NCBI RefSeq assembly: GCF_020886115.1
Contig: NZ_AP025185.1
Coordinates: forward strand, 1,922,001 to 1,986,000
Source of the DNA: Flavobacterium ammonificans
GTDB taxonomy: Bacteria > Bacteroidota > Bacteroidia > Flavobacteriales > Flavobacteriaceae
Direction of reading: 5' to 3'
DNA: 64,000 nucleotides
Shown here one piece after another: positions 3,036 through 21,459 of this stretch. Each line of letters begins with the position of its first letter. The first letter of the stretch is position 1. The notes below the pieces were generated by a model. That model ran no database searches, was not told the DNA's origin, and saw only the letters and a list, made by a program, of their open reading frames with translations. The translations under genes were made by a program, and so were the position numbers.

Positions 3036-4218
3036 ATTGTTTGAATGGACTAGACCATTTTGGATCAACGTAGACATTTGTTCCGGTTAGTGTTTTTATA
3101 AAGGCAGTCAGCGCATTTACTTCTGTTGCAGTTATGTTTAATTGTTGTCCATAACCATTAGGCCTCAACCTTGGATCTAAATTACTGTTTCCTGGAGCTA
3201 AATTAATATTTCCATAATGTCCTATTACATTTTGCAAAGTAGCAAAACTTCCTGTGTGCATCATAGGTCCATTAGGAGTTCCATCCGCCTTAAGTAAATC
3301 TCGTAAAGAGGGAGATCTTGTGTTAGTAATATCAATTCCAGTTCCATTAAGAACTCCAATTACGCCATTATTTCTAGTGTTGGGATCTATATCAAATTCA
3401 GGAGCTGCATGACAACCTGCGCACCCAAAACCACATGAAGTTCTAACACCATTAGCATCAAAAACGGGTGGTGTTAAAAATAAATTTTTTCCTTGATTTT
3501 CTTGGGCTGTAAAATTAGGAAATGCTTGATTGTCATTTTGTACAGTGCTACGTCCAGCATCGTATTTTGAATCAAAAGATTGAATACTTCTTATAAATTG
3601 TGCCAACGCATTTTGCAATTTAGATTCTGTAATTTCCTCAGATCCATACACATATTTGAATAGTTCTTTGTAATAACCAATTCCTTGTAATTTTGTAATC
3701 AAAGTAGTGATAGACCCATCACCACTTGTACCACTAAACCCCATTTCAATATGATTTTTTATAGGATCAGAAGTTTGTAATTCTAATGTAGCGGCTCTTT
3801 CATCCCAAAAGAATTTTCTTTCATTTGAAAATCTAGAATTGATTAATCGCATAGAATGTCTCGTTGTTGTTCCATTTACTCCATCGCTAGCAATAGCATC
3901 ATCACTAAATGCATTGGCTTGAATATGACAAGAAGAACATGAAATAGTATTGTTGGAAGATAAGTTTTTATCATAGAACAATACTCTACCTAATGTCGCT
4001 CCTTTATCTGATATTGGATTACCAGATGTGTTGTCTTTAGTTATATAAGCCGGTTTGGATTGATTGGCATAATTATATAAATTATTGAGGTCAATTTTTC
4101 CTGCAAAAGCAGTAATTACATTAGGATAGCTATCAGTTGTATCAATGTCTGTTGAATTACTACAAGCAAATAGAGTCAAAATACTTCCTAAGTACATTAG
4201 AGAAGTTAATTTTTTCAT
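3034..4218 (-). CDS. Di-haem cytochrome c peroxidase family lipoprotein
   Basis: This 394-residue protein carries a lipoprotein signal peptide (lipobox LFAC, Cys19). It has two CxxCH haem c motifs, CSSCH (Cys94, Cys97, His98) and CAGCH (Cys266, Cys269, His270), in the layout of the CcpA/MauG family. An FFWDERAATLELQTSDPI segment typical of the family lies between them. Members reduce hydrogen peroxide with electrons from small c-type cytochromes, or act in MauG-like oxidations. It is probably anchored on the periplasmic side of a membrane. No partner gene is adjacent. Confidence 0.88.
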   Translation of the reverse strand: MKKLTSLMYLGSILTLFACSNSTDIDTTDSYPNVITAFAGKIDLNNLYNYANQSKPAYITKDNTSGNPISDKGATLGRVLFYDKNLSSNNTISCSSCHIQANAFSDDAIASDGVNGTTTRHSMRLINSRFSNERKFFWDERAATLELQTSDPIKNHIEMGFSGTSGDGSITTLITKLQGIGYYKELFKYVYGSEEITESKLQNALAQFIRSIQSFDSKYDAGRSTVQNDNQAFPNFTAQENQGKNLFLTPPVFDANGVRTSCGFGCAGCHAAPEFDIDPNTRNNGVIGVLNGTGIDITNTRSPSLRDLLKADGTPNGPMMHTGSFATLQNVIGHYGNINLAPGNSNLDPRLRPNGYGQQLNITATEVNALTAFIKTLTGTNVYVDPKWSSPFKQ

Positions 4219-7311: not shown

Positions 7312-9405
7312 TTATTTCTGGTACTTCTTTTTCTTCAATAAATCGGAAGCTGTTTGATAATATGAAATCGTTTCTCTGACTAAATCGGTTCTTGTTTTAT
7401 TCAAAACCTCTTGATCATAATTGAGTTGAAATTCAGGAGCCATTTTCTGATCGGGTTTCAAACTCAATTGGAATTGTTTAACTTCTTGTTTTGGGGAAAT
7501 GATTGTTAATACATCATCTTTTATTAAACCTAAATCTTGGTAAGTAGCAATTAATGCTCTGGGTTTATAATCAGATTGAAGTACGTCTTGTCCGTAAAAT
7601 TTACTTTGATAATTAAAATTCAATAATCCCATTAAGGTAGGCATTACATCAATTTGCGACATCAATTGTGTGTATTTTTGCGGTGCAATAAATCCAGGAC
7701 TATATATTAATCCAGGAATTCTGTATTTGTCTAAAGGAAGTTCAGTTTTTCCAGCACTAGATGCACAGTGGTCAGCGACAATAACAAAAACGGTATTCTT
7801 AAACCAAGATTGTTTTTTAGCCAGTGTAAAAAACTGTTTTAATGCATAATCGGTATATTTTACTCCACCAGCTCTGGACTTAGCGTCACCTGGTATATCA
7901 ATTTTATTATTCGGATAGGTAAAGGGTCTGTGATTACTCACCGTCATCCAATGGTTAAAGAAGGGTTTCCCTGATTCTGATTCAGTATTCATTATTTGAA
8001 TGGCTTTATTAGCCATATCCTCATCACAAACACCCCAAACATTAGAAAAAGTAATTTCGTGCGGACTCAAAGTTTTCTTATCAACTATATCATAACCATT
8101 ACCTGTAAAGAAATCTTCCATATTATCAAAGAAAGCATCACCACCATACAGGTATTTTACATTATAACCTTTTTGCTTAAAGATATTTCCAGTAGAAAAT
8201 TTATTTTTATTATCTTTTCGTTTCACTACACTTTCTCCAGCTGTAGGAGGAAAACAAAGTGTAACAGCTTCAAGTCCTCGAACGGTTCGGTTCCCAACAG
8301 CATACAAATTAGTAAATTGTAAACTTTCTGAAGCTAGCTTGTCTAAGTAAGGAGTAATATTATTTTCATTTCCATACGCTTTCATAAAATCAGCACTGAA
8401 GCTTTCAATAGTAATTAAGACAACATTTTTATGAATTTCTTGTCCTTTTCCAATAATTTTTCTAGTTGTTGATTCATTTTCAATTCCATTGATTTGATTT
8501 TTCAAAATAGCATATGCTTCATTACTTGGAATCGTTTTATAAAATTTAAAATAATCCAATTCACTATTTAGGAAAGCTAAATAAAATTTATAAATCCCAT
8601 TAGATTGTAACTCATTAGCAAAAATATTCTGAGAGTTTTCTTTTGTTGCCAAATATGGAATTGTAGTCAATGAAAGGCCTAAAATAACAAAATACAAACC
8701 TGAAATTTGAATTTTTTCAGTGAAAGAAGGAATAGCTTCTATGTAGGTTTTAGAATATTTTACTATAAAGTAAGTGATTATTCCAGAAGTTATAAATAGT
8801 ACTGTAAATAGAGGAATTACAGGATACGATTCCATAATATTCCCAATAACTTCGTTTGTATATACTAAATAATTCACAGCAATAAAATTGTATTTTACGC
8901 CAAATTCATTCCAAAAGAAAAACTCACTAATAGCATTTTGAAGTATTAAAGTGACAAAAAGAAAAATCACAAAGGAAAACAACCAAAAACGAATGGTGTT
9001 TCTGTATTTTGGAAGGAATAATAATAGACCAAAAAGTAGTGTTTTAAGTCCGATAAAAGCCATTCCTATTTCAGGTAAAGCACCACCATATTCGTTTAAA
9101 ATAGTATTTCCAAAAGCAATATATAAGAACAAACCAACAAGCAATCCAAAAATAATATAACCTGCTGGTTTGAGATATTTTGAATTGGATATGAAAATCA
9201 AGTACAACCATAGCAAACCGCTTAAGACTGTAAAAACTAAAAAGTCAGATAGAATTCCGAATGTAAAAATTTTGATTATATCAAAACCAGAAAATGAAGC
9301 CTGTGTGATGGGATGGAATAATAATACTATTCTTAAGATGAGGCTTACTAGTATGTAGAATAAAGTTAAAGAATAAAAAGGAGAAAGTTTTTTAACGAGT
9401 GGCAT
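7312..9405 (-). CDS. LTA-synthase-like membrane sulfatase
   Basis: This 697-residue protein has about five N-terminal membrane helices (within 1-270) and an alkaline-phosphatase-superfamily domain (about 320-640). That domain contains NVVLITIESFSADF, NRTVRGLEAV with the likely nucleophilic Thr, and VIVADHCASSAG with metal-binding Asp and His. LtaS-type enzymes transfer phosphoglycerol or phosphoethanolamine groups to envelope glycans or lipids. In Gram-negative Bacteroidota the substrate is unknown, since lipoteichoic acid is absent. The divergent upstream region carries CTTAAG repeats that could also regulate this gene. Confidence 0.88.
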   Translation of the reverse strand: MPLVKKLSPFYSLTLFYILVSLILRIVLLFHPITQASFSGFDIIKIFTFGILSDFLVFTVLSGLLWLYLIFISNSKYLKPAGYIIFGLLVGLFLYIAFGNTILNEYGGALPEIGMAFIGLKTLLFGLLLFLPKYRNTIRFWLFSFVIFLFVTLILQNAISEFFFWNEFGVKYNFIAVNYLVYTNEVIGNIMESYPVIPLFTVLFITSGIITYFIVKYSKTYIEAIPSFTEKIQISGLYFVILGLSLTTIPYLATKENSQNIFANELQSNGIYKFYLAFLNSELDYFKFYKTIPSNEAYAILKNQINGIENESTTRKIIGKGQEIHKNVVLITIESFSADFMKAYGNENNITPYLDKLASESLQFTNLYAVGNRTVRGLEAVTLCFPPTAGESVVKRKDNKNKFSTGNIFKQKGYNVKYLYGGDAFFDNMEDFFTGNGYDIVDKKTLSPHEITFSNVWGVCDEDMANKAIQIMNTESESGKPFFNHWMTVSNHRPFTYPNNKIDIPGDAKSRAGGVKYTDYALKQFFTLAKKQSWFKNTVFVIVADHCASSAGKTELPLDKYRIPGLIYSPGFIAPQKYTQLMSQIDVMPTLMGLLNFNYQSKFYGQDVLQSDYKPRALIATYQDLGLIKDDVLTIISPKQEVKQFQLSLKPDQKMAPEFQLNYDQEVLNKTRTDLVRETISYYQTASDLLKKKKYQK

Positions 9406-9415
9406 TTTTTTAAAT

Positions 9416-9423
9416 CAAATTTA
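9416..9423 (-). promoter_or_regulatory. Possible -7 box of the sulfatase gene
   Basis: On the minus strand this reads TAAATTTG, matching TAnnTTTG. It is only 10 bases from the ATG, which would give an almost leaderless transcript, so the assignment is tentative. Confidence 0.3.
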
Positions 9424-9455
9424 AATAAATAGTAACGTTATATACTTCAATTTAA

Positions 9456-9472
9456 CTTAAGAATAGCTTAAG
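9456..9472. promoter_or_regulatory. Direct-repeat operator, CTTAAG pair (distal)
   Basis: Two perfect CTTAAG hexamers start at 9456 and 9467, 11 bp apart. The CTTAAG-N5-CTTAAG geometry, one helical turn, is typical of OmpR/PhoB-family regulators (compare the PmrA box YTTAAK-N5-YTTAAK). It lies between the divergent sulfatase and thioredoxin genes. Confidence 0.6.
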
Positions 9473-9503
9473 ATTTCACTGGCTATTAAGTTGCTAGGAT
9501 TAA

Positions 9504-9531
9504 CTTAAGTTTAGCTTAAGTTTAGCTTAAG
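9504..9531 (+). promoter_or_regulatory. Direct-repeat operator, CTTAAG triplet (proximal)
   Basis: Three perfect CTTAAG hexamers start at 9504, 9515 and 9526, each 11 bp apart with the same TTTAG spacer. They end 37 bp before the -7 box at 9569. The encoded OmpR-type regulator (12738-13400) is the obvious candidate ligand. Confidence 0.7.
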
Positions 9532-9568
9532 AAATCTCTATTGCAAAATATTCACGCTAAATCTGTGT

Positions 9569-9576
9569 TATTTTTG
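9569..9576 (+). promoter_or_regulatory. -7 promoter box of the thioredoxin/ApbE/TCS operon
   Basis: TATTTTTG matches TAnnTTTG and lies 26 bases upstream of the ATG at 9603. No good -33 box is present at normal spacing (a TTG is 25 bp upstream), which fits an activator-dependent promoter. Confidence 0.6.
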
Positions 9577-9602
9577 TATAACTATAATTTAAAACTTCAT
9601 CG

Positions 9603-10037
9603 ATGAAAAAAATCCTCTTACTTTCCCTTTTATTATTTTTCAAAATAAGTTTTTCGCAAAATTGGAAAAGTTCTTTTGAGGAAGCGAAGTCTCAAGCATT
9701 AGCTGAAAACAAAAATATAGTTTTGGTTTTTTCTGGATCAGATTGGTGCGCTCCTTGTATCAAATTAGATAAAGCCGTTTGGCAATCTGAAGAGTTCAAA
9801 AAAGAATCCGAATCGAATTGGGTAATTTACAAAGCTGATTTTCCAAAGAAAAAAGCAAACCAATTAAGCCCTACATTAACTGAGTCAAATAAACTATTAG
9901 CAAGTAAATACAATACTTCGGGTAATTTCCCTTTAGTGGTTTTATTAGATAAAAACGGAACTGTTTTAGGTATTGAAGGATATAAGAATTATTCCGCCTC
10001 TAATTATATTAAATTAATTCATTCATTCGAAAAATAA
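9603..10037 (+). CDS. Exported thioredoxin-fold protein
   Basis: This 144-residue protein has a Sec signal peptide (about 1-19, ending FSQ) and a thioredoxin fold with WCAPC at 48-52 inside VLVFSGSDWCAPCIKLDKAVW. That places it with the periplasmic thioredoxin_7/DsbD-gamma-like proteins that reduce or isomerise disulfides in the envelope. It is the first gene of the operon behind the CTTAAG boxes and overlaps the ApbE start by one base. Its partner may be the DUF4266 lipoprotein, which ends in CGC. Confidence 0.85.
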   Translation: MKKILLLSLLLFFKISFSQNWKSSFEEAKSQALAENKNIVLVFSGSDWCAPCIKLDKAVWQSEEFKKESESNWVIYKADFPKKKANQLSPTLTESNKLLASKYNTSGNFPLVVLLDKNGTVLGIEGYKNYSASNYIKLIHSFEK

Positions 10038-11020
10038 TGAAATTTAACATCGCAATTGCCTTACTAATTATCAGTCTAAATTCTTTTGGACAAACAGAAT
10101 ACAAACGTAAAGTTTCCATGTTAGGAAGTCCGTTTGAAATTACTGTTGTAGCCAAAGACACAATAGAAGGGAAGCAGTTTGCAGATTTAGCAATCACAGA
10201 GGTTAAACGTATAGAAAATTTAATTTCTGATTGGATTCCAACAACCCAAATTTCATTAGTTAATAAAAATGCTGGTGTTCAAGCCATAAAAGTAGATTCC
10301 GAAGTATTTGAATTAGTTGAAAGAGCCATAAAAATTTCACAATTAACTGATGGTGCTTTTGACATTTCGTATGCCTCTATGGATAAAATTTGGAAATTCG
10401 ATGGTAGCATGAAAGAAATGCCTTCAGAAGAGGCAATAAAAAAATCAGTGTCGAAAATTGGCTTTAAGAACATTCTTTTAAATAAGCAAGATCAAACTAT
10501 TTTCTTAAAAAACGAAGGAATGAAATTAGGACTTGGTGGGATAGGCCAAGGCTATATTGCTGATAAAGTTAAAGATAAGTTACTCTCTAACGGTTGTAAG
10601 TCTGGAATAGTTAATGTTTCTGGCGATATCAATGCGTGGGGTAAACAAAGCAATCAAAAACCTTGGACTGTCGGAATTGTAAATCCAATGAATAAGAACA
10701 AAGTATTTGCCACTTTCCCTTTAGAGAATAGTTCTGTAGAAACCTCTGGGAATTATGAGAAGTATGTTCTATTTAATGGGATACGATATTCTCATATTAT
10801 TGATCCAAGAACTGGATATCCAGCTACAGGAATAGTAAGTGTATCGGTTTTTTCTAAACAAACTGAAATCGCTGATGCTTTAGCAACCGGAATTTTTGTT
10901 TTGGGGGTAGAAGTAGGTTTGAATCTAGTAAACCAATTAAAAGGGATCGAATGCATTATTGTTGATGATAAAGGCAAAATTCATTCTTCCAAAGGAATTG
11001 ACATTAAAAAATATAAATAA
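10037..11020 (+). CDS. apbE: FAD:protein FMN transferase (ApbE family)
   Basis: This 327-residue protein has a signal peptide (about 1-18, ending SFGQ). ApbE motifs include GLGGIGQGYIADK, SGDINAWG, HIIDPRTGYP and a metal-binding DALATGIFVLG. ApbE hydrolyses FAD and attaches FMN by a phosphoester bond to a Thr or Ser in periplasmic proteins. I found no obvious flavinylation target motif in the neighbouring proteins, so the substrate may be encoded elsewhere or the motif may be divergent. The gene is coupled to the thioredoxin gene and lies seven bases before the DUF4266 gene. Confidence 0.92.
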   Translation: MKFNIAIALLIISLNSFGQTEYKRKVSMLGSPFEITVVAKDTIEGKQFADLAITEVKRIENLISDWIPTTQISLVNKNAGVQAIKVDSEVFELVERAIKISQLTDGAFDISYASMDKIWKFDGSMKEMPSEEAIKKSVSKIGFKNILLNKQDQTIFLKNEGMKLGLGGIGQGYIADKVKDKLLSNGCKSGIVNVSGDINAWGKQSNQKPWTVGIVNPMNKNKVFATFPLENSSVETSGNYEKYVLFNGIRYSHIIDPRTGYPATGIVSVSVFSKQTEIADALATGIFVLGVEVGLNLVNQLKGIECIIVDDKGKIHSSKGIDIKKYK

Positions 11021-11026
11021 ACAACC

Positions 11027-11239
11027 ATGTTAAAAAAAATCTGTTTAACCCTCTTAGTACCGTTTGTATTACAGTCATGTACTGTTGTTAAAGAATATGA
11101 AAAAGAAAAAATCAATGATATTGATATGAAAATAGCTGCGCGAACGTCGGAGCGATATGAAACTACGTTTCAGGTATATCGAGAAGCTGCTGCTGGAGCG
11201 AATGGCGGGAAATCTGGCGGTGGTTGTGGCTGTAATTAA
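11027..11239 (+). CDS. DUF4266 small lipoprotein with CGC tail
   Basis: This 70-residue protein has a lipoprotein signal (lipobox LQSC, Cys18), a short charged helical part, and a Gly-rich tail ending GGGCGCN (Cys67, Cys69). It matches my recollection of DUF4266, whose role is unknown. After processing only about 53 residues remain. The paired tail cysteines look suited to metal binding, disulfide formation or modification. The neighbours are a thioredoxin, ApbE and a DUF3570 outer-membrane protein, suggesting one envelope module. Confidence 0.8.
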   Translation: MLKKICLTLLVPFVLQSCTVVKEYEKEKINDIDMKIAARTSERYETTFQVYREAAAGANGGKSGGGCGCN

Positions 11240-11258
11240 TGAATTCAATAAATTGAAA

Positions 11259-12719
11259 ATGAAAAAATATTTAATATATAGTATATTGTTCCTTTCGGTA
11301 ACAACATTTGCTCAAACCCAAACCGCAACTCCTACATTCAAAAAAAGAGTTTTGGAAAGTACCGAAGTTGATTTTTTGGCAAGCTATTATGTTCAAGATG
11401 GTTCAAGATCAGCAGTTTCAGGCGGAATTGGTTCTGAGAAGTTAACCGACATTGCTTCAAATATTACTATTGCTATGCCACTCAATGATGATGACGTACT
11501 AACCGTAGATGTCGGAATTTCAGCCTATTCTTCAGCCTCCTCTAGTAATATTAATCCGTTTAATTCTTCTGGCGCATCAGGTGGAAACGGAGATGATGAT
11601 GATGACGATGATAGAAATGGTTATGCTAATACAGGTGTTAGTCCACAGCCCTACGGAAGTCCTTGGCAAGCCTCATCAGGCGCTTCAAGAAGTGATCAAC
11701 TAGTTTCAGTAATGGCCAATTACAGTCACAGCAGTGATTCAAGAAATTTTATATGGAATGCCGATGTTTCTTTCTCTAATGAGTATGATTATACCTCTGT
11801 CGGATTTGGTGGTGGAGTTGCCGCTCTTTTTAATGAAAAAAACACTGAAATTAGTGTAAAGGCTAATGCCTATTTAGACCAATGGCGACCTATTTACCCA
11901 ACAGAGCTTCATGAATACTCCAAATACGGAACTAATTTATTATCACAAGGCTATTTTAATGGAGTAACTGTTTATAACGAAAATGGCGTGGCAGCTACTG
12001 AAAATTATTTACCAAGTAATTTTAAAGATTTGGCTTTAACCAATAGAAACTCTTATTCGGCCTCTTTTGGCTTTTCTCAAATAGTAACTAAACGTCTTCA
12101 GCTTTCATTGTTTTTTGATGTTTTACAACAGCAAGGATTATTATCGACTCCCTATCATCGGGTTTATTTTGCTGACAAGTCTAACTTTTACATTGGTCAA
12201 TCTCAGTTTATTTCTAGCTATGAAAACAATGCCAATACTGGAGTATTTAAATTAGCAGATGACATTGAGCGATTGCCAAATAACCGATTCAAATTACCCG
12301 TTGGCGCACGTTTGAATTATTACATTAATGAGCATTTTATTTTAAGAACCTATTACAGGTATTATTCTGACGATTGGAATATTCACGCGCATACTGCAAG
12401 TATAGAGTTGCCTATCAAACTTTCAGATAAATTTACTGTATTTCCAACCTTTAGGTACTACACTCAAACAGAGTCAAAATTTTATGCGCCTTACGAAAAA
12501 CATCTTTCTTCGGAACAATTTTATACTTCTGATCCAGATTTAGCTACCTTTGATACCAAGCAAATAGGTTTTGGAATCAATTACACCGATATTTTTGCCA
12601 CATCAAAAATTTGGCAATTTGGACTAAAAAATATTGATTTTAGGTTTCATCAGTATGATCGTTCTGACCGACTTAAGGCTAGTATAGCTACAATTGCTTT
12701 TAAATTTATAATGCAATAA
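11259..12719 (+). CDS. DUF3570 outer-membrane beta-barrel protein
   Basis: This 486-residue protein has a signal peptide (MKKYLIYSILFLSVTTFAQ, 1-19). Many alternating aromatic/hydrophobic strands and a C-terminal strand suggest an outer-membrane beta barrel. Seven consecutive Asp residues (112-118) sit in a Gly/Ser-rich loop and could bind divalent cations. The frame is open from 11157, but that start would overlap the DUF4266 gene and hide the signal peptide, so I place the start at 11259. DUF3570 has no established function. Confidence 0.82.
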   Translation: MKKYLIYSILFLSVTTFAQTQTATPTFKKRVLESTEVDFLASYYVQDGSRSAVSGGIGSEKLTDIASNITIAMPLNDDDVLTVDVGISAYSSASSSNINPFNSSGASGGNGDDDDDDDRNGYANTGVSPQPYGSPWQASSGASRSDQLVSVMANYSHSSDSRNFIWNADVSFSNEYDYTSVGFGGGVAALFNEKNTEISVKANAYLDQWRPIYPTELHEYSKYGTNLLSQGYFNGVTVYNENGVAATENYLPSNFKDLALTNRNSYSASFGFSQIVTKRLQLSLFFDVLQQQGLLSTPYHRVYFADKSNFYIGQSQFISSYENNANTGVFKLADDIERLPNNRFKLPVGARLNYYINEHFILRTYYRYYSDDWNIHAHTASIELPIKLSDKFTVFPTFRYYTQTESKFYAPYEKHLSSEQFYTSDPDLATFDTKQIGFGINYTDIFATSKIWQFGLKNIDFRFHQYDRSDRLKASIATIAFKFIMQ

Positions 12720-12737
12720 ATAGAGTATAAAAGAAAC

Positions 12738-13400
12738 ATGAGAATTTTAATTGTTGAGGACGAAATTGGAATTGTTCAATTCTTACAACAAGGGTTGGAA
12801 GAAGAAGGATATACTGTTACAACAGCTTCCGATGGTGAACAAGGACTTCAACTTCTTTTTAAAGAAAAATTTGATTTAGTATTGCTAGATTGGATGCTAC
12901 CAAAAATGACAGGTATAGAAGTATGTAAGACATTTAGACAACACAATACAACTACAGCAGTTATTTTTTTAACAGCTAAAGACACCATTCAAGAAACAAT
13001 AGAAGGCCTAAGAGTTGGTGCGAATGACTATATCAAAAAACCGTTTAGCTTTGATGAATTGTTAGAGCGAATGAAAGTTCATTTTCGTACTTTAGAAAAA
13101 GTGGAGACTCTTCATTTAGGGCCAGTTGAAATTAATCTAAGTCAACATCTTGTGTTAGTTAATAAGAAAGAAGTAAGTTTAACTAATCGAGAGTATGATT
13201 TACTACATTACTTAGTTAAAAATAAAGGAAAAGTATGCACACGAACTCAAATAATTGAAGATGTTTGGGATATTCATTTTGATTATGACACAGGAGTTAT
13301 TGATGTGTTTATGAATTCCATTCGAAAAAAAATTAACTTTAAAAAAGAAGAAGACTACATCAAAACCATTCGTGGTGTGGGGTACATTGCAAACGATTAA
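12738..13400 (+). CDS. OmpR-family response regulator
   Basis: This 220-residue regulator has a receiver domain (1-117; acidic Glu7, Asp8, Glu9; phosphoacceptor Asp51 in LLDWMLPK; Lys near 101 in IKKPF). A winged-helix DNA-binding domain follows (about 125-218; LTNREYDLLHYLVKNKG and TIRGVGYI). It lies 18 bases after the DUF3570 gene and two bases before the kinase gene. Winged-helix regulators of this class bind direct repeats spaced about 11 bp, matching the CTTAAG boxes upstream of its own operon and of czcA. This suggests autoregulation and control of metal efflux. Confidence 0.93.
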   Translation: MRILIVEDEIGIVQFLQQGLEEEGYTVTTASDGEQGLQLLFKEKFDLVLLDWMLPKMTGIEVCKTFRQHNTTTAVIFLTAKDTIQETIEGLRVGANDYIKKPFSFDELLERMKVHFRTLEKVETLHLGPVEINLSQHLVLVNKKEVSLTNREYDLLHYLVKNKGKVCTRTQIIEDVWDIHFDYDTGVIDVFMNSIRKKINFKKEEDYIKTIRGVGYIAND

Positions 13401-13402
13401 CT

Positions 13403-14791
13403 ATGATGCAACTTTCCTTTAAAAATAAAATTGCCTCCCTTTACATAGTAACAACTGCACTATTAATTGCTTTTGTTTTTTGTGTTATTTATATTAGTGT
13501 AAGCTATACTATGTACAGTGATATCAATGAAGATATTGAAGCAGAATCTCAAAAACATCTGACAGAAATTGCTGTAAGTAATAATAGTTTTCGTCTCATC
13601 CATCTTGAAGAATGGATGGAAAGAGAACATAATACAGAGGATGTTAATCCTGTCTACGTACAATTTATCGACAATAAAAAGAATGTTGTTGAAAAATCTC
13701 CTAACCTCAAAAGAAATCTTCAATTTAATTCTGAAATTCCATTCAATACACTCTTTGATTATCAATTGGATGGAAAAGCTGTACGCCAAATACAATTACC
13801 AATTTATGAGGGGAAATTGATTATAGGTTACCTAATGGTAGCCATGTCTTTGGAAAACACCTATTTAGTTCAAAATAATTTGTTAGAAGTATTGACAATT
13901 GCCTATCCAACAATTTTAGGAATTCTATTTCTAATTGCGCGTTTGATTGCTGGACGAAGTATAAAGCCAATTAATGCTATAATCAATACTGCTAATGAAA
14001 TTACAAAAGATAATTTAAAATCAAGAATTCCTTTACCGAGAACCAAAGATGAATTATTTATTCTATCCCAAACCATTAATGATTTATTAGATCGTTTAGA
14101 AACAGCTATAGAACGAGAAAAACAATTTACTTCAGATGCCTCGCATGAGTTAAGAACACCCCTAACGGTAATAAAAGGTACTTTAGAAGTTTTAATTAGG
14201 AAACCAAGAGCTACCAAAGAATATGAAGAAAAGATTAATTTTTGCGTTGCAGAAGTAGATCGATTAAATCATCTAGTAGATCAATTACTATTACTTGCGC
14301 GTTACGAAAATGAAAAGCAGTCATTCAAGAATGAGAAAGTATATTTAAATGGTATCATTCAAGATATTTTAGTTCGAAAGGCATCTTTACTTAAGTTAAA
14401 AGATATTAAAATTCATCTAAAAATGGAAGAGGACTATTATTGTGAATCAGACAAGCAATTTGTTTCAATAATAATCACCAATTTAATTTCTAATGCAATC
14501 AAATATTCTAACCAAAGTGATGCCATTGAAATTCATTTAAATCAAAGAAAACAAGAAATAATTTGTTCTATTATTGATAATGGAATTGGAATATCCCCAG
14601 CTGATTTAGAAAAAGTATTTCAACCTTTCTTTCGATCAAAAGCATTAAATCACCCAAGTATTAAAGGAATAGGCGTGGGATTATCCATAGTGCAACGATT
14701 ATGTTCTCTTCTGTCCATTGGTATTAATTTAACGAGTGTTGAAAATGCGGGAACCAAAGTTGAATTAGTTTTTCAAGAATCGTCTAATTAA
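13403..14791 (+). CDS. Membrane sensor histidine kinase
   Basis: This 462-residue kinase has two membrane helices (about 12-33 and 163-183) flanking a periplasmic sensor of about 130 residues. HAMP-like and HisKA regions follow, with phosphoacceptor His248 in SDASHELRTPLT, then a HATPase domain (N box NLISNAIKYS, G1 IIDNGIGI, G2 GVGLSIV). The sensor has no CxxC or His-rich motif that would name the ligand. Gene content suggests metal or envelope redox stress. ATG codons at 13403 and 13406 are both possible starts. Confidence 0.92.
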   Translation: MMQLSFKNKIASLYIVTTALLIAFVFCVIYISVSYTMYSDINEDIEAESQKHLTEIAVSNNSFRLIHLEEWMEREHNTEDVNPVYVQFIDNKKNVVEKSPNLKRNLQFNSEIPFNTLFDYQLDGKAVRQIQLPIYEGKLIIGYLMVAMSLENTYLVQNNLLEVLTIAYPTILGILFLIARLIAGRSIKPINAIINTANEITKDNLKSRIPLPRTKDELFILSQTINDLLDRLETAIEREKQFTSDASHELRTPLTVIKGTLEVLIRKPRATKEYEEKINFCVAEVDRLNHLVDQLLLLARYENEKQSFKNEKVYLNGIIQDILVRKASLLKLKDIKIHLKMEEDYYCESDKQFVSIIITNLISNAIKYSNQSDAIEIHLNQRKQEIICSIIDNGIGISPADLEKVFQPFFRSKALNHPSIKGIGVGLSIVQRLCSLLSIGINLTSVENAGTKVELVFQESSN

Positions 14792-14803
14792 TCCTTCATC
14801 AGC

Positions 14804-14820
14804 ATTAAGTAATTCTTAAG
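14804..14820 (+). promoter_or_regulatory. Direct-repeat operator upstream of czcA
   Basis: ATTAAG (14804) and CTTAAG (14815) are 11 bp apart, the same layout as upstream of 9603. The site ends 21 bp before the -7 box at 14842 and so overlaps the -33 position, as expected for an activator of the OmpR/PhoB class. Confidence 0.6.
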
Positions 14821-14841
14821 ATTTAGATTATATTTATGACT

Positions 14842-14849
14842 TACTTTTG
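14842..14849 (+). promoter_or_regulatory. -7 promoter box of czcA
   Basis: TACTTTTG matches TAnnTTTG and lies 23 bases before the czcA ATG. The -33 position is taken by the CTTAAG direct repeat. Confidence 0.6.
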
Positions 14850-14872: not shown

Positions 14873-17800
14873 ATGCTCGAAAAAATTATAGCATTTAGTT
14901 TAAAAAACAAACTGATTATTCTACTCTTTACATTAGGAGTTTTTAGTTTTGGAATTTATTCTGTTTTCCAAATTTCGATTGGTGCAGTTCCTGATGTAAC
15001 TAATAATCAAGTGCAAGTAATTACTACTTCTAGAAATCTTTCTACACAAGATATTGAACAGTTTATTACCTATCCAGTTGAAATCGAAATGGCTAATTTA
15101 CCTGGCGTAAAAGAAATTAGGTCTATTTCTAAGTTTGGATTATCAGTGGTTACTATTGTTTTTGAAGATGATTTAGGAACCTATTTACCACGACAATTAA
15201 TTGCTGAAAAAATTAAATCAGCTTCCGAAAAAATCCCTGCCGGTTTCGGCACCCCTGAAATGGGGCCAATAACCACTGGCTTAGGAGAAATTTACCAATA
15301 TACTCTTGAAGTTAAACCCGAATTTAAAGATAATTATTCTGTTACCGATTTACGAACTATTCAAGATTGGATAGTTAAACGACAATTGTCTGGAATCAAA
15401 GGTGTAGTAGAAATCAATACTTGGGGTGGTTTTTTAAAACAATATGAAATCGCCATAATTCCAGAACGTTTAAAAGCGATTAATATAAGCATGACAGATG
15501 TTTTTGTGGCTTTGGAAAAAAACAATAGTATCGCTGGTGGAGCCTATATCGAAAAAGTAAATCAAAGTTATTTCATTCGAGCTGAAGGAAAAGTAAATTC
15601 ACTTGAGGATATTGAAAATATTGTAGTTAAAAATACCAATGGTATTCCAGTTTACATTAAAAATATTGCTGAAGTTAATTTTGGACATGCAAATCGTTTC
15701 GGCGCTATCACAGGGAATGGTGAGGGTGAAAAGGTATTAGGACAAGTAATGATGTTAAAAGGTGGAAACTCTAAGCAAGTTATTACTGATGTCAAAAATC
15801 GGGTGGCTGAAATTCAAAAGACATTACCGGAAGGTGTTTATATCAATGGTTTCTTGGAACGAAGCGAATTGGTGGGTAAAACTACTTTCACAGTGGCAGA
15901 AAATTTAATTCTAGGTTGTTTAATTGTAATTTTTGTAGTGGTGCTATTATTGGGAAATTGGCGTTCGGGATTGGTAGTTGCATCTGTAATTCCATTATGC
16001 TTATTATTTGCTATTTCGTTCATGAATATTTTTGGAATTGATGCCAATTTGATGAGTTTAGGCGCTATAGATTTCGGAATTATTATTGATGGAGCGGTAA
16101 TTATTGTAGAATTTATTGCATTCCAAATAGCAAGTAAATCGGCAAGTTTAGTTGGACTATCAAAAGAAAAACAACAAATAGAAATTGACCAAATCACTTT
16201 TAAAAGCGCATCTAAAATGATGAATTCGGCAGTTTTTGGACAGTTAATTATTTTGATCGTTTTTATACCTATTTTGTCTTTATCAGGAATTGAAGGTAAA
16301 ATGTTCAAGCCTATGGCAATGACATTTAGCTTCGCTTTATTAGGTGCAATGCTTTTGTGTTTTACATACGTTCCTGTAGTGGCATCGATTTTTTTAAAGC
16401 CTAAAGAAGAAAATCCAAATTCGTTTTCTCATCAATTGATTCATAAATTCAATTCGATATATTTACATATTATTACTTGGTCTTTGAGTAATACTAAAAA
16501 AGTACTGTTGGGCGCTGTAGGACTTTTGTTATTTTCTATTGTAATTTTCACTAGAATGGGTGGCGAATTTATTCCGACACTAGACGAAGGCGATTTCGTA
16601 ATTCAGCCTGTTTTAAAAACGGGAACTTCATTGACAAAAACTATTGCTACTACTACAAAGATTGAACAAATTATTTTGAAAAATTTCCCTGAAGTTAATC
16701 AAGTGGTGAGTAGGATTGGTGCTGCCGAAGTACCAACAGATCCAATGTCAATGGAAGAAAGCGATATTATTGTCAAATTAAAACCAAAATCAGAATGGGT
16801 TTCTGCCGAATCCAAAGATGAGTTAGCTGACAAAATCAAAACTGCAATTGAAACTCAAATTCCGAATATGGAAATTGAATTTACACAACCTATCGAAATG
16901 CGATTTAACGAATTGATTTCTGGAACACGTTCTGACGTAGCTGTGAAGTTATTCGGTGAAGATTTGAATATTTTGGCTAGTAAAGCTCATGAAATTCAAA
17001 ATGCAATTAAAAATGTGGAAGGTGCTTCGGATATTATTATTGAAAAAACCGAAGGATTACCACAAATGTTAGTACAATATGATCGCTCAAAAATAGCTCG
17101 TTACGGATTAAATATTGCCGACTTAAACGACATGATAGCGCTTAGTTTTGCCGGTAAAACAGTCGGAAATGTATTTGAAGGCGAAAAACGATTTGACATG
17201 GTGGTGCGTTTAGATAAGATAAACCGAAAGGATATTGAAGACTTACAATATTTATACATTTCAACTCCAAACGGACAACAAATTCCGTTAAATGAATTAG
17301 CTACAATTGAGTATTCTCAAGGTCCTGCAAAAATTTCAAGAGACAATACCAATAGAAGAATTGTTGTTGGTATTAATGTAAGAAATAGAGATTTACAAAG
17401 TGTAGTTACTGATATTCAAAATATAGTTAGTTCAAAGATACAGCTACCTGCAGGTTATTATATAAAATATGGAGGGCAATTTGAAAACTTAGAATCTGCA
17501 AAAACCAGATTGCTAATTGCTGTTCCTATAGCTTTATTCTTAATTTTTATTCTATTGCATTTTGCTTTCGGTTCTATCAAAGAGGCGTTGATGGTGTATT
17601 CAGCAATTCCACTTTCTGCTGTAGGTGGTATTTTATTTCTATGGCTGCGTGGTTTACCGTTTAGTATTTCGGCAGGAGTTGGTTTTATTGCTCTTTTTGG
17701 AATTGCAGTGTTAAATGGAATTGTTTTAATTGAGCATTTTAAAGAACTTAAGCACAGCGGAATGAAAGATATGGATCAATTAATACTAAAAGGTACTACA

Positions 17801-19204
17801 GATCGTTTGCGACCTGTTTTGTTGACTGCCGCCGCTGCAGCTTTAGGATTTTTGCCAATGGCAATTTCAACCTCTGCCGGTGCTGAAGTACAAAGACCTT
17901 TGGCCACTGTCGTTATTGGAGGCCTAGTAACTGCAACATTTTTAACCTTAATTGTACTACCTATACTTTTTAAAGTTTTAGATAAAAAAGATTTTAAAAA
18001 GCCGCAATTTAAAGTGAATAACAAAGCAATCATTCTATTCTTTTTATTGAGTTGTTCATTTCTAAGTGCTCAAAATACAAGCGCCGAACGAGAACGAATT
18101 ATCAATTTAGCAATCGATAATAATAAAGAAATTAAAGCGGCTCAATTGCAACTTGATAAAGCAAAAGCAGCTATTCAATCTGCCTATTCATTTGATAAAA
18201 TGAATGTGTATTATAGTTATGATCAAAATAACTTAGCATTGAATGTATTACCACTTCGAGTTTTTGGAGTACAGCAACGTTTCGATTTTCCTACTGTTTA
18301 TGGTGCCAAGAAAAAAGTGCTGACTTCAGAATACGACAAAGAAAAAGCGCGTTATGATTTACTGAAAAACAAACTAAATTTAGCGGTTTCAAAGGTTTAC
18401 GAGGAAATTGTTTTCTTGCAAAATCAGGAGAAACGCTATGGCTATTTGGATAGTTTATATCAAAATTTTTCTAAAGCAAGTAATCGTCGTTTTGAGTTGG
18501 GAGAAACTAATTATTTAGAAAAAATAACGGCTCAAGCTAAAGCGGGACAAATTCAAACAAAGAAAACTCAAATTGAAAAAGATAAAATAGCCCAATATGA
18601 GCTTTTGAAATCTTTAGTACAATCAGATGAAACTATTCTAATTTCCAATACTAATTTAACTCCGATTGTAGATTTAGCAAATACTTCCAATACAGGTTTT
18701 CATTCTATTTATTTAGAAGAAGTTACTAAAACCTATAAAAATGAGATTTCATTACAAAAAAGTAATTGGTTACCTGATATTAACATTGACTATTTTCAAG
18801 GTAGAAATAATGGTTTATCGCAGTCGCTTTATGGTTTTCAATTAGGAGTTGCAATACCCATTTTATTTACAGGAACAACTTCAAAAATTAAAGTGGCTGA
18901 ATTAGAATTACAAAGTTGGCAGCAGCAAAAAATAAATGAAGAGCAAAAAATGTCGAGCTATTTAATCCAAAAGAAAAATGAGTTGGCAAAATTCCAAGAA
19001 GCTATAAATTACTACCAAAAACATGGTAAGAAATTATCAGACGAAATAATTAAAGTGGCTAATTTGAGTTATAAAAATGGAGAAATTGATTTCTTCCAAT
19101 ACATTCAAAGTTTAGAAAATGCTTCTTCAATTCAGTCGGATTACTTAGAAACAGTACTGCAATTTAATTTGACTCAACTAGAATTAAACTACCCTAATTT
19201 TTAA
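14873..19204 (+). CDS. czcA: CzcA-type metal efflux pump fused to TolC-like channel
   Basis: This is a 1443-residue fusion. Residues 1 to about 1040 form an RND pump of the heavy-metal efflux class. The helix-4 signature DFGIIIDGAVIIVE (Asp400, Asp406, Glu413) is the form found in divalent-cation CzcA pumps, not the CusA form, so Co, Zn or Cd is the likely substrate. About residue 1050 a new hydrophobic stretch ending SFLSAQN resembles a cleavable signal peptide. From 1065 to the end the sequence is a TolC/CzcC-like outer-membrane factor rich in coiled coil. The adaptor gene follows 10 bases later. RND-OMF fusions of this kind occur in other Bacteroidota. Confidence 0.93.
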   Translation: MLEKIIAFSLKNKLIILLFTLGVFSFGIYSVFQISIGAVPDVTNNQVQVITTSRNLSTQDIEQFITYPVEIEMANLPGVKEIRSISKFGLSVVTIVFEDDLGTYLPRQLIAEKIKSASEKIPAGFGTPEMGPITTGLGEIYQYTLEVKPEFKDNYSVTDLRTIQDWIVKRQLSGIKGVVEINTWGGFLKQYEIAIIPERLKAINISMTDVFVALEKNNSIAGGAYIEKVNQSYFIRAEGKVNSLEDIENIVVKNTNGIPVYIKNIAEVNFGHANRFGAITGNGEGEKVLGQVMMLKGGNSKQVITDVKNRVAEIQKTLPEGVYINGFLERSELVGKTTFTVAENLILGCLIVIFVVVLLLGNWRSGLVVASVIPLCLLFAISFMNIFGIDANLMSLGAIDFGIIIDGAVIIVEFIAFQIASKSASLVGLSKEKQQIEIDQITFKSASKMMNSAVFGQLIILIVFIPILSLSGIEGKMFKPMAMTFSFALLGAMLLCFTYVPVVASIFLKPKEENPNSFSHQLIHKFNSIYLHIITWSLSNTKKVLLGAVGLLLFSIVIFTRMGGEFIPTLDEGDFVIQPVLKTGTSLTKTIATTTKIEQIILKNFPEVNQVVSRIGAAEVPTDPMSMEESDIIVKLKPKSEWVSAESKDELADKIKTAIETQIPNMEIEFTQPIEMRFNELISGTRSDVAVKLFGEDLNILASKAHEIQNAIKNVEGASDIIIEKTEGLPQMLVQYDRSKIARYGLNIADLNDMIALSFAGKTVGNVFEGEKRFDMVVRLDKINRKDIEDLQYLYISTPNGQQIPLNELATIEYSQGPAKISRDNTNRRIVVGINVRNRDLQSVVTDIQNIVSSKIQLPAGYYIKYGGQFENLESAKTRLLIAVPIALFLIFILLHFAFGSIKEALMVYSAIPLSAVGGILFLWLRGLPFSISAGVGFIALFGIAVLNGIVLIEHFKELKHSGMKDMDQLILKGTTDRLRPVLLTAAAAALGFLPMAISTSAGAEVQRPLATVVIGGLVTATFLTLIVLPILFKVLDKKDFKKPQFKVNNKAIILFFLLSCSFLSAQNTSAERERIINLAIDNNKEIKAAQLQLDKAKAAIQSAYSFDKMNVYYSYDQNNLALNVLPLRVFGVQQRFDFPTVYGAKKKVLTSEYDKEKARYDLLKNKLNLAVSKVYEEIVFLQNQEKRYGYLDSLYQNFSKASNRRFELGETNYLEKITAQAKAGQIQTKKTQIEKDKIAQYELLKSLVQSDETILISNTNLTPIVDLANTSNTGFHSIYLEEVTKTYKNEISLQKSNWLPDINIDYFQGRNNGLSQSLYGFQLGVAIPILFTGTTSKIKVAELELQSWQQQKINEEQKMSSYLIQKKNELAKFQEAINYYQKHGKKLSDEIIKVANLSYKNGEIDFFQYIQSLENASSIQSDYLETVLQFNLTQLELNYPNF

Positions 19205-19214
19205 TTAAATTTTC

Positions 19215-20333
19215 ATGAAAAAGATACTATATATATTAGCTGTTTCTTCCATTTTATTGGGGTGTAAAGAAGCTACAAAAAAAGAAATTACGCCCAAAGA
19301 TGATGGGCTAATTGCGATTACATCGGCTCAATTTGAGTCGATAGGTATTCAAATAGACAGTCCAAAAGAGCGTGCATTTGATGTCAATTGTAAGGCATCG
19401 GGAAAAATTGATGTTCCACCACAAAATAGGGCACAAGTGACTACATTCATTGGAGGTTATGTGAAATCTACTCGACTATTAGTTGGAGATAAAGTTCGTA
19501 AAGGACAAACACTCATTACATTAGAAAGTACAGAATATTTAGACATTCAAAAGGAATATCTTGAAGTTGCTGAACAGATTAAGTATTTGAAATCCGAATT
19601 CGCCCGACAAAAAACATTGTTTGACGAAAAAATTAGTTCGCAAAAAAATTATTTAAAAGCAGAAAGTGAGTATCGAAGAGCAAAAGGAATGTATCAAAGT
19701 TTAAGAGAAAAACTGCTGCTTCTCAATATTAATCCGACGCATGTTGAAAAAGGGAAATTAACTTCATTTGTAACTATTTCGTCTCCAATTTCTGGAGATA
19801 TTGTGGTTATGAATGCCGCTATTGGTAGGTATCTAGCACCATCGGACGTAATTATGGAAATTGTAGATACACAGCACTTACATTTGGAATTGGCGGTGTT
19901 TGAAAAAGACATATTAAATGTAAAAGTGGGACAGAAAATACAATTTAAGGTACCTGAAGCTTCCAAAGAAATATTCCCGGCCGAAGTACATTTAGTAGGT
20001 AAATCCATTGAAGGAAATGAAAGAACAATTAATGTTCATGGACATCTAGATGAGAAAATTAAACAAAAATTATTGACCGGTATGTTTGTTGAGGCTTCAA
20101 TTACAACCAGTTCAAAAAACGGATTAGCACTACCTTTTGACGCTGTTATTAGTGAAAACAATAAAAATTATGTACTTTTATTAGAAAGCGCAAAAAACAA
20201 TTCTTACAGTTTCAAAAAAGTAGCAGTTAAAATAGGAGAAAAGAATAGCTCTTTTATAGAAGTAATTCCGAACAATCTAATCAATTCTTCATCTAAAATT
20301 GTAGTAAAAGGCGCTTTTGATATTGCAAACTAA
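19215..20333 (+). CDS. RND efflux periplasmic adaptor (CzcB-like lipoprotein)
   Basis: This 372-residue membrane fusion protein has a lipoprotein signal (LLGC, Cys17). Barrel-sandwich halves flank a coiled-coil hairpin (about 100-160). A lipoyl-like motif (GGYVKSTRLLVGDKVRKGQTL) and the later SPISGDIVVMNAAIGRYL are visible. It links the inner-membrane pump to the outer-membrane channel encoded just upstream in the fused gene. No His-rich metal-binding N-terminus is seen. The VIT1-type gene begins eight bases after its stop. Confidence 0.9.
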   Translation: MKKILYILAVSSILLGCKEATKKEITPKDDGLIAITSAQFESIGIQIDSPKERAFDVNCKASGKIDVPPQNRAQVTTFIGGYVKSTRLLVGDKVRKGQTLITLESTEYLDIQKEYLEVAEQIKYLKSEFARQKTLFDEKISSQKNYLKAESEYRRAKGMYQSLREKLLLLNINPTHVEKGKLTSFVTISSPISGDIVVMNAAIGRYLAPSDVIMEIVDTQHLHLELAVFEKDILNVKVGQKIQFKVPEASKEIFPAEVHLVGKSIEGNERTINVHGHLDEKIKQKLLTGMFVEASITTSSKNGLALPFDAVISENNKNYVLLLESAKNNSYSFKKVAVKIGEKNSSFIEVIPNNLINSSSKIVVKGAFDIAN

Positions 20334-20340
20334 TTACGCT

Positions 20341-21459
20341 ATGGATGTAAATAAATTAAAAAAGCAATTGCAAATTGAAGTAGATACTGCTTTTTTATAT
20401 GATAGCATTGCTTCCATTCAAACTGATATTAGTTTGAAGCGGGTTTTGAATAGTTTGGCTGAAATAGAAAAGGGACATGCACATCACATGTTGAATAAAA
20501 TAGTGACTTTTGATACCAATTATCAAATGCCATTGCCTTCTTCTAAAGCCAAGTTTCAACTGAAAGTAGGAAAGCTATTTGGCTACAGTTCTATCATTAG
20601 TAGTTTGGCCAACATTGAAAAACAATTTGCTGTTAATACTATTAAGAATAAAATCGAACAAGGCGAAAAGCTAACCGGATTTGAACACAATCACTTGAAT
20701 ATTATCGAAGCAGTCAATAATAATGAGGCGTTGAACGTTTCTGGTGGATTGTTATCCAAGTTTGAAAGTCGCCATAAATCTGTAGGTGGAAATGCATTAC
20801 GAGCAGCGGTACTAGGATCAAATGACGGACTAGTTTCTAATATGAGTTTAGTTATGGGAGTAGCTGGCGCAGCCGTTTCTAATGATACCATTCTATTAAC
20901 AGGAACCGCAGGACTTTTGGCTGGGGCAATTTCGATGGCTTTAGGCGAATGGCTATCAGTACAAAGTTCAAGAGAATTGAATCAACGTCAAATTGAATTA
21001 GAAACAGAAGAATTAGAAGCTTCTCCCGAAGAAGAGAAAAAAGAATTGGTTTTATTGTACCAAGCCAAAGGTATGAATGCAGCCGATGCACAAAAATTAG
21101 CAGACAAAGCATTTGAAAGCCCAGAGACTGCCATTGATGCAATCATTAATGAGGAATTAGGAATTGACAAAGATGAATTAGGAGGTTCGGCATGGGAAGC
21201 TGCGACAGCCTCCTTTATTTTATTTGCCATTGGAGCCATCATTCCGTTGTATCCATTTATCTTCTTAGATGGTAGAAGCGCTATTTTACTAAGTATTGGA
21301 AGTAGCGTAGTGGGTCTTTTTGGGATTGGAGCAGCAATTACTTTATTGACAGGTAAGAGTATTTTATTTTCTGGATTTAGACAAGTTGCTTTTGGATTGG
21401 TAGCCGCAGCAGTAACCTATGGAATTGGAACTTTAATTGGAGTTTCACTAGCAGGATAA
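20341..21459 (+). CDS. Ferritin-like domain fused to VIT1/CCC1 transporter
   Basis: This 372-residue protein has an N-terminal ferritin/rubrerythrin-like four-helix domain (about 1-135) with candidate di-iron ligands in AEIEKGHAHH. A VIT1/CCC1 membrane domain follows (about 145-372), starting AVLGSNDGLVSNMSLVMGVAGA, with about five helices. Such fusions move Fe(II) or Mn(II) across membranes. The frame opens at 20317, but that overlaps the adaptor gene, so I place the start at 20341. Membership in the czc operon suggests a shared metal-stress response. Confidence 0.88.
   Translation: MDVNKLKKQLQIEVDTAFLYDSIASIQTDISLKRVLNSLAEIEKGHAHHMLNKIVTFDTNYQMPLPSSKAKFQLKVGKLFGYSSIISSLANIEKQFAVNTIKNKIEQGEKLTGFEHNHLNIIEAVNNNEALNVSGGLLSKFESRHKSVGGNALRAAVLGSNDGLVSNMSLVMGVAGAAVSNDTILLTGTAGLLAGAISMALGEWLSVQSSRELNQRQIELETEELEASPEEEKKELVLLYQAKGMNAADAQKLADKAFESPETAIDAIINEELGIDKDELGGSAWEAATASFILFAIGAIIPLYPFIFLDGRSAILLSIGSSVVGLFGIGAAITLLTGKSILFSGFRQVAFGLVAAAVTYGIGTLIGVSLAG

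Follow-up and report, generated by a model that had tools for sequence, protein, structure and literature searches.

Why do copies of the hexamer CTTAAG stand in evenly spaced rows before the promoters around one two-component system, and which protein reads them? The question is raised by a stretch of 64,000 nucleotides of Flavobacterium ammonificans (contig NZ_AP025185.1, positions 1,922,001 to 1,986,000; the whole stretch is called the window below), taken from a genome of 2,409,408 bp in one contig, 99.85% complete. Upstream of an operon that begins with thioredoxin-like and ApbE genes and ends with an OmpR-family response regulator and a sensor kinase, five perfect CTTAAG hexamers lie at 9456, 9467, 9504, 9515 and 9526, with 11-bp steps within each of two groups. 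Before the adjoining pump gene czcA, ATTAAG-N5-CTTAAG occupies 14804 and 14815. A first-pass annotation had read all this as a CTTAAG-N5-CTTAAG regulon driven by the regulator at 12738. That interpretation is partly supported: the coordinates are correct and the direct repeat is a conserved operator form at three promoters, but the regulon is local instead of genome-wide. It is real, conserved and small. Sites, spacing, register, conservation and co-occurrence with the regulator are observed; from them we infer binding, activation and a metal signal. With good confidence we consider it probable that the regulator sustains a local response to metal or envelope stress, controlling three promoters of its own locus via the predicted boxes. 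The elements concerned are these:

9416 to 9423, minus strand: predicted -7 element TAAATTTG of the sulfatase promoter, of the TAnnTTTG sigma-A form (PMC9723704)
9445 to 9472, no strand: operator array 1, half-sites CTTCAA, CTTAAG and CTTAAG at 11-bp intervals; distances to the sulfatase -7 element 21/32/43 bp
9504 to 9531, no strand: operator array 2, three CTTAAG half-sites at 11-bp intervals; distances to the thioredoxin -7 element 37/48/59 bp
9569 to 9576, plus strand: predicted -7 element TATTTTTG of the thioredoxin/ApbE operon
14804 to 14820, no strand: operator 3, ATTAAG-N5-CTTAAG; distances to the czcA -7 element 21/32 bp
14842 to 14849, plus strand: predicted -7 element TACTTTTG of the czcA promoter

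TAnnTTTG is described as the flavobacterial sigma-A -7 box, at positions -12 to -5, in the passages of PMC9723704 used here; all papers given by accession are cited for such passages. The degenerate half-site CTTCAA at 9445 turns the 9456/9467 pair into a three-member array, and 37 bp separate 9467 from 9504. The offsets in the window, 21/32/43 for the sulfatase and 37/48/59 for the thioredoxin promoter, therefore assign the pair better to the divergent sulfatase gene and the triplet to the thioredoxin/ApbE/regulator operon. All five hexamers had been described as lying upstream of the latter; only the triplet is assigned to it here. Control of the sulfatase gene had been called possible, an understatement, since its predicted sites keep the exact 21/32/43 register and are conserved in relatives. 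At czcA the box stands where it had been placed, but it abuts the -33 region instead of overlapping it: it reaches from about -50 to -34, assuming TAnnTTTG at -12 to -5 of a predicted start site.

How rare is such a pattern? CTTAAG as such shows no excess in the window (13 copies where 20.5 are expected), and N5 pairs with up to two mismatches number 7 versus 4.3 expected, a value reached by 16 of 100 shuffles. Elsewhere in the window the hexamer occurs singly, at 3289, 9221, 9332, 12672, 14390, 17747 and 53959, each time in an open reading frame (ORF) of more than 450 bases, as had been noticed before. Genome-wide, CTTAAG-N{0,24}-CTTAAG has three matches, all of them N5 and all among the five upstream hexamers; the reversed control has 18. 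It is in this perfect pairing, with a spacing and position kept in relatives, that the pattern departs from chance. With at most one mismatch seven N5 sites are found: four in the window, two inside ORFs and one intergenic, between a phosphodiesterase-like and a DNA polymerase I-like gene. The composite TTAAG-N6-TTAAG-N21/22-TAnnTTTG occurs once in the genome, at the czcA promoter (control: 0). The idea of a large regulon was dropped, since four of the seven sites are the window's own and the composite matches only once. The regulon is small and local, not genome-wide.

Is the arrangement kept in relatives? The loci compared are those of regulator relatives, the best 80 of 578 confirmed stretches, mostly from Flavobacterium and dominated by close relatives. 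The czcA promoter set comprises 35 loci, the window and a sister strain included (at least 70% identity, at most 400 bp from the kinase). Their best CTTAAG-N5-CTTAAG is perfect in 27 and has one mismatch in five, two in two and three in one; it lies 64-69 nucleotides 5' of the start codon in 33 of the 34 loci with a printed position (76 in the other, L047). The box had been placed at the metal-efflux gene, and its conservation there in regulator-bearing genomes bears this out. Thioredoxin-led operon promoters (n = 31) have 4 perfect boxes, 9 with one mismatch, 13 with two and 5 worse; regulator-led ones (n = 49) have 6, 25, 5 and 13, respectively. Several weak operon boxes retain a core ATTAAA-nTTTG-ATTAAA. 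Autoregulation, as proposed, was right in outline: the boxes are conserved at operon promoters, but they are weaker and stand at a different offset (37/48/59 in the window).

The spacing is nearly exclusive. After removal of the window and its sister strain, the perfect pair occurs at czcA promoters (n = 33) 27 times as N5, once as N16 and never at the other 23 spacings from 0 to 24. Operon promoters (n = 78, same removal) yield 42 N5 pairs with at most one mismatch, followed by N16 with 11; N16 is one additional 11-bp step, and shuffling leaves a mean of 0.2 N5 pairs. When hexamers were ranked with no motif given, CTTAAG came first in the czcA promoters and second in the operon promoters.

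Some records in this collection carry odd names. Contigs from metagenome-assembled genomes (MAGs) titled Crocinitomicaceae (L005) and Lentimicrobium (L035) hold the locus, and their czcA box does not differ from the one in many Flavobacterium; this may reflect either transfer or misbinning. A MAG record titled Klebsiella pneumoniae (L061) contains a Flavobacterium-like thioredoxin-ApbE-regulator locus and is probably a mislabelled or mixed bin.

Where does the box stand with respect to the -7 element? TAnnTTTG begins 21-22 bp past it in 30 of the 34 czcA promoters displayed, one of the 35 having been dropped for its three mismatches; the display and logo of the operon promoters omit 18 of 80 with more than two mismatches. 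Anchored on the -7 element, half-sites peak at 21, 32, 54 and 43 in czcA promoters (n = 31) and at 65, 21, 43, 54, 55, 33 and 32 in sulfatase promoters (n = 42; of 61, those with TAnnTTTG 15-60 bp 5' of the start codon were profiled). Among 18 sulfatase promoters sharing less than 55% ungapped identity, the measure of redundancy used, register 21/22 modulo 11 takes in 28 of 47 half-sites; these classes were picked after the profile had been seen. Shifted anchors lead one to expect 8.0, and none of 2000 trials reaches 28. A test of the top two registers, which is independent of the choice of classes, gives 28 versus a mean of 16.6, again with 0 of 2000 trials. In six promoters of orthologous siderophore-receptor genes the box stands at 66/67 and 77/78, the same register as czcA and sulfatase, and four of the six have a further half-site at 44.

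Does the box travel with the regulator? In a scan of 100 relatives (own genome included; 61 in the genus, 39 outside) the perfect box was found in 26 genomes. The genus has 120 CTTAAG pairs at spacings N0 to N24, of which 30 are N5 (three in the own genome), compared with a mean of 3.75 for each other spacing, as assembled by hand from per-genome totals and N5 counts. Outside the genus there are 3 N5 pairs versus 3.7 per other spacing; these three sites in 39 genomes, one inside an ORF, are at chance level and were discarded. The regulator, counted as present at E<=1e-80, occurs in 42 of the 61 genus genomes; among the 39 others no genome has it. A perfect box is present in 22 of the 42 regulator-bearing genus genomes versus 1 of the 19 lacking it (Fisher p = 4e-4), the composite pattern in 28 of 42 versus 4 of 19 (p = 0.002); both contingency tables were counted by eye. 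The scan of the genome and of flavobacteria near TAnnTTTG boxes, a check proposed with the original claim, thus finds N5 dominant within the genus, promoter-linked and conserved in relatives, and not randomly scattered.

In the 100 relatives the composite has 57 matches versus 9 in the control. Some of them resemble recurring unrelated sequences, with similar matched letters across genomes; in G051, G005, G045, G047 and G031, ATTGGCATGATTTTTTCTTTA recurs between two TTAAG and TTTG and looks like a different conserved promoter.

The positions of the 27 genus boxes outside the own genome were assigned by reading the flanking genes, and no box among them is contained entirely in an ORF of more than 120 residues. 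Eight are located between kinase and czcA (two of them with a small ORF intervening), three at thioredoxin operons, one being a paralogous cluster, two between regulator and sulfatase, three at sulfatase paralogs (31-39% identity), nine 5' of TonB-dependent receptor genes and two unassigned. Two of the box-bearing receptors pass the cut-off of the siderophore-receptor family TIGR01783 at full length; the other seven are orthologs of these two by tblastn. The receptor-linked boxes (L089, L092, L094, L102, L104, L107, L108, L113 and L115) belong to large-genome relatives and stand before TonB-dependent receptor genes of siderophore type. These receptors form two families, and in one of the two the box keeps promoter register.

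What do the genes at the locus encode?

7312 to 9405, minus strand: LtaS/OpgB-type membrane enzyme with a 'sulfatase' domain, the divergent target (PF00884; relatives 3lxq, LtaP/LtaS)
9603 to 10037, plus strand: thioredoxin-like (DsbH-like) protein (PF13899; NF043050 below cut-off)
10037 to 11020, plus strand: ApbE flavin transferase (PF02424)
11027 to 11239, plus strand: DUF4266 small lipoprotein-like protein with C-terminal GGGCGCN (PF14086, sequence)
11259 to 12719, plus strand: DUF3570 protein with two SGAS flavinylation-type motifs at residues 104 and 140 (PF12094)
12738 to 13400, plus strand: OmpR-family response regulator (PF00072 and PF00486; best NCBIfam TIGR01387, below cut-off)
13403 to 14791, plus strand: sensor histidine kinase (HAMP/HisKA/HATPase_c) with conserved periplasmic E48, H52 and E55
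14873 to 19204, plus strand: CzcA-type RND metal pump fused to an outer-membrane efflux domain (TIGR00914 over cut-off, PF02321)
19215 to 20333, plus strand: CzcB-type periplasmic adaptor (TIGR01730 over cut-off)
20341 to 21459, plus strand: VIT1-family protein (PF01988)

The divergent enzyme has its closest solved structures, by sequence, in 3lxq and the lipoteichoic-acid enzymes LtaP/LtaS. It contains an NRTVRG motif; the C/SxPxR sulfatase motif was not found in it, and therefore it is probably a phosphotransferase rather than a sulfatase. The pump is a protein of 1443 residues from a single gene, the outer-membrane efflux domain being fused at its C-terminus, and scores 1174.9 bits in TIGR00914 (CusA/CzcA; cut-off 701.45). 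The VIT1-family gene directly 3' of czcB is probably co-transcribed with it. A VIT-like gene comes next after czcB in 23 of 32 czcB-bearing loci, the window counted; 19 of these 23 are close relatives and four are only about 35% identical.

To which family do the two signalling proteins belong? Both regulator domains exceed their cut-offs (PF00072, 114.5 bits; PF00486, 86.8 bits), which places the protein in the OmpR/PhoB family. Of the families listed, TIGR01387 (CzcR/CopR/SilR) fits it best with 211.8 bits, below the cut-off of 279.2; the kinase likewise scores best, 196.4 bits, in TIGR01386 (CzcS/CopS/SilS; cut-off 292.55). PmrA (NF007928) gives 149.4 bits where the curated cut-off is 330. 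Filing the regulator as PmrA or CzcR was rejected, both curated cut-offs being missed. The PmrA box of enterobacteria and Acinetobacter is described as TTAA-centred and head to tail (YTTAAK; HTTAAD-N5-HTTAAD) in passages of PMC3973317 and PMC10927774. The window sites, CTTAAG-N5-CTTAAG and ATTAAG-N5-CTTAAG, have this very form and the same 11-bp steps. The likeness to a PmrA box, which had been pointed out, thus holds for the site but not for the protein family. In the regulator's helix VIDVFMNSIRKKI, aligned by hand to the PmrA helix of the same passages, the base-contacting His193, His195 and Asn196 of PmrA are replaced by Phe, Asn and Ser; the recognition helix is nearly invariant across 81 relatives. 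The predicted targets in the window differ from those of PmrA/BasR, too: they are a metal RND pump, a flavin/thioredoxin system and an LtaS-type enzyme, behind promoters of the Bacteroidota -7 type. In common with the system proposed here, PmrA/BasR controls an envelope enzyme, eptA/pmrC, which belongs to the alkaline-phosphatase superfamily, and has a link to metal, in its case iron.

CzcRS, CusRS and CopRS resemble the window pair as the best-scoring family for both proteins and by the adjoining CusA/CzcA pump; they differ in that the window proteins stay below the curated cut-offs and that the operon adds ApbE/DUF3570 genes. A structure model of kinase residues 1-240 (predicted local distance difference test, pLDDT, 81) has three PDB matches at E<=0.001. 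Ranks 1 and 3 are integrative models titled WALK-YYCH (9a5d) and YVAQ-MCPB (9a65); rank 2 is the CusS sensor with silver (5ku5; E 5e-4, template modelling score by target 0.49, root-mean-square deviation 7.2), a weak match, and CzcS follows lower (E 0.11). The model lends weak support to a PDC-like metal sensor. Where the first helix ends, E48 is conserved in 81, H52 in 77 and E55 in 80 of 81 relatives; this recalls CzcS, in which H55/D60 of the first helix bind zinc (PMC5540610). Metal sensing by the kinase is likely, as judged from sequence and model. By analogy, the VIT1 and siderophore-receptor genes would suggest iron, the pump family heavy metals.

The thioredoxin-ApbE-DUF4266-DUF3570 set is a published flavinylation cluster with a function stated to be uncertain (PMC8238504); VIT1 is reported there in 25 such clusters, and clusters lacking an adjacent DsbD are noted. 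The window has all four genes, two [ST]GA[ST] motifs in DUF3570 and a CxC end in DUF4266. It differs in that they share an operon with a two-component system and have a metal pump and VIT1 as neighbours; the passages of PMC8238504 on these clusters mention no two-component regulator. DUF4266 was detected in 83 of 296 genomes surveyed in the phylum. PhoP of Riemerella anatipestifer (PMC9603813) is another response regulator of the Bacteroidota; its motif is AT-rich and contains TTAA (most conserved letters TTTAACA), and it regulates its own gene. It is global, with the motif upstream of 583 candidate targets, whereas the window regulon is small, local and built on CTTAAG pairs.

How might the system work? 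The kinase (13403-14791) would phosphorylate the response regulator (12738-13400), which would bind head-to-tail, TTAA-centred half-sites 11 bp apart, CTTAAG being the best. It would control the promoter of czcA-czcB-VIT1, the divergent promoter of the LtaS-type 'sulfatase' and, by autoregulation, that of the thioredoxin-ApbE-DUF4266-DUF3570-regulator-kinase operon. The czcA and sulfatase arrays end 21 bp 5' of TAnnTTTG, at about -34. An activator bound there would stand in for the contact that RNA polymerase otherwise makes at -33; this position would make activation, under metal or metal-caused envelope stress, the likely outcome.

Several observations weigh against this reading. The number of genomic N5 sites with at most one mismatch, 7, is exceeded by the 15 of the reversed pattern, and genome-wide abundance was dropped as evidence for this reason; it proves nothing, and spacing, place and register are the only informative features. 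The loci stem mostly from one genus and are not independent. The box overlaps the 3' end of the kinase gene in 17 of the 35 czcA loci (its first 9 bases in 15 loci, 16/17 bases in two), and this overlap may contribute to the czcA half-site peaks at 43 and 54. Could the pattern, then, be nothing but chance plus shared ancestry, that is AT-rich DNA, kinase codons (CTT AAG TAG, Leu-Lys-stop) and close relatives? This is strongly disfavoured and most improbable. The box lies wholly 3' of the kinase stop in 18 of the 35 loci, the window included, and has at most one mismatch in 16 of these 18; coding constraint by CTTAAGTAG, which is Leu-Lys-stop of the kinase in many loci, was therefore rejected as a sufficient cause. 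Moreover, a single spacing stands out, boxes are also found at unrelated genes, and the register test held on promoters of less than 55% ungapped identity.

The other unfavourable points concern the operon and some outlying promoters. Operon boxes are weaker, with at least three mismatches in 18 of 80 promoters; their -7 offsets are 37/38 or 56/57, the thioredoxin-led promoters (37/38, 48/49) having another register than czcA and the regulator-led ones being mixed. A second type of TonB receptor has the box at 94 in three promoters, out of register, as is the box of one sulfatase paralog (L099; 37/48). The regulator might thus control czcA and the sulfatase only, the thioredoxin/ApbE operon being repressed or not directly controlled and the triplet a leftover or a distal sulfatase site. 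The thioredoxin class is indeed about half a helical turn off, and these intergenic arrays do keep register with the sulfatase promoter. We hold this to be rather unlikely: the triplet in the window is perfect and set apart from the sulfatase array, and seven representatives of the thioredoxin class retain 37/38 and 48/49 in 12 of 20 half-sites. That the boxes serve another regulator, be it a second OmpR-type or an unrelated protein, and that the two-component pair is a mere neighbour, would explain a perfect box in one genus genome (G018) that lacks a regulator relative at the threshold used, and also why nine of the 27 genus boxes stand at TonB-receptor genes distant from the regulator gene. 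It is quite improbable, as 22 of the 23 box-bearing genus genomes have the regulator, the boxes flank its own operon and the N5 excess is absent from the 39 genomes outside the genus. A profile search of the genome for regulator relatives gave 13 matches, of which only a PhoB-like and an RprY-like protein match over receiver and OmpR-type DNA-binding domain; a fourth long match has a C-terminal domain that reads as LuxR-type by sequence.

The local regulon of the OmpR-family regulator thus stays our preferred explanation. A wider reading is tentative and, in our opinion, possible though somewhat unlikely: the system may be a Bacteroidota counterpart of PmrAB with a different recognition helix, in which phased PmrA-type half-sites couple RND/VIT1 export, an LtaS-type enzyme and flavin-based electron transfer by DUF3570, joined in some large-genome relatives by a siderophore receptor. 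If so, the DUF3570 system would be a pathway of metal, probably iron, detoxification or reduction.

To our knowledge, operator sites of metal two-component systems in Bacteroidota have been little described, and no such box was found among the leading matches in the open-access literature. The fixed register between repeats and -7 element suggests how activation may work at promoters of the unusual Bacteroidota sigma-A consensus, in a form that can be put to the test. The DUF3570/ApbE electron-transfer cluster, the role of which is stated to be uncertain in the cited part of PMC8238504, becomes tied to metal export, and its function therefore becomes testable by the choice of metal.

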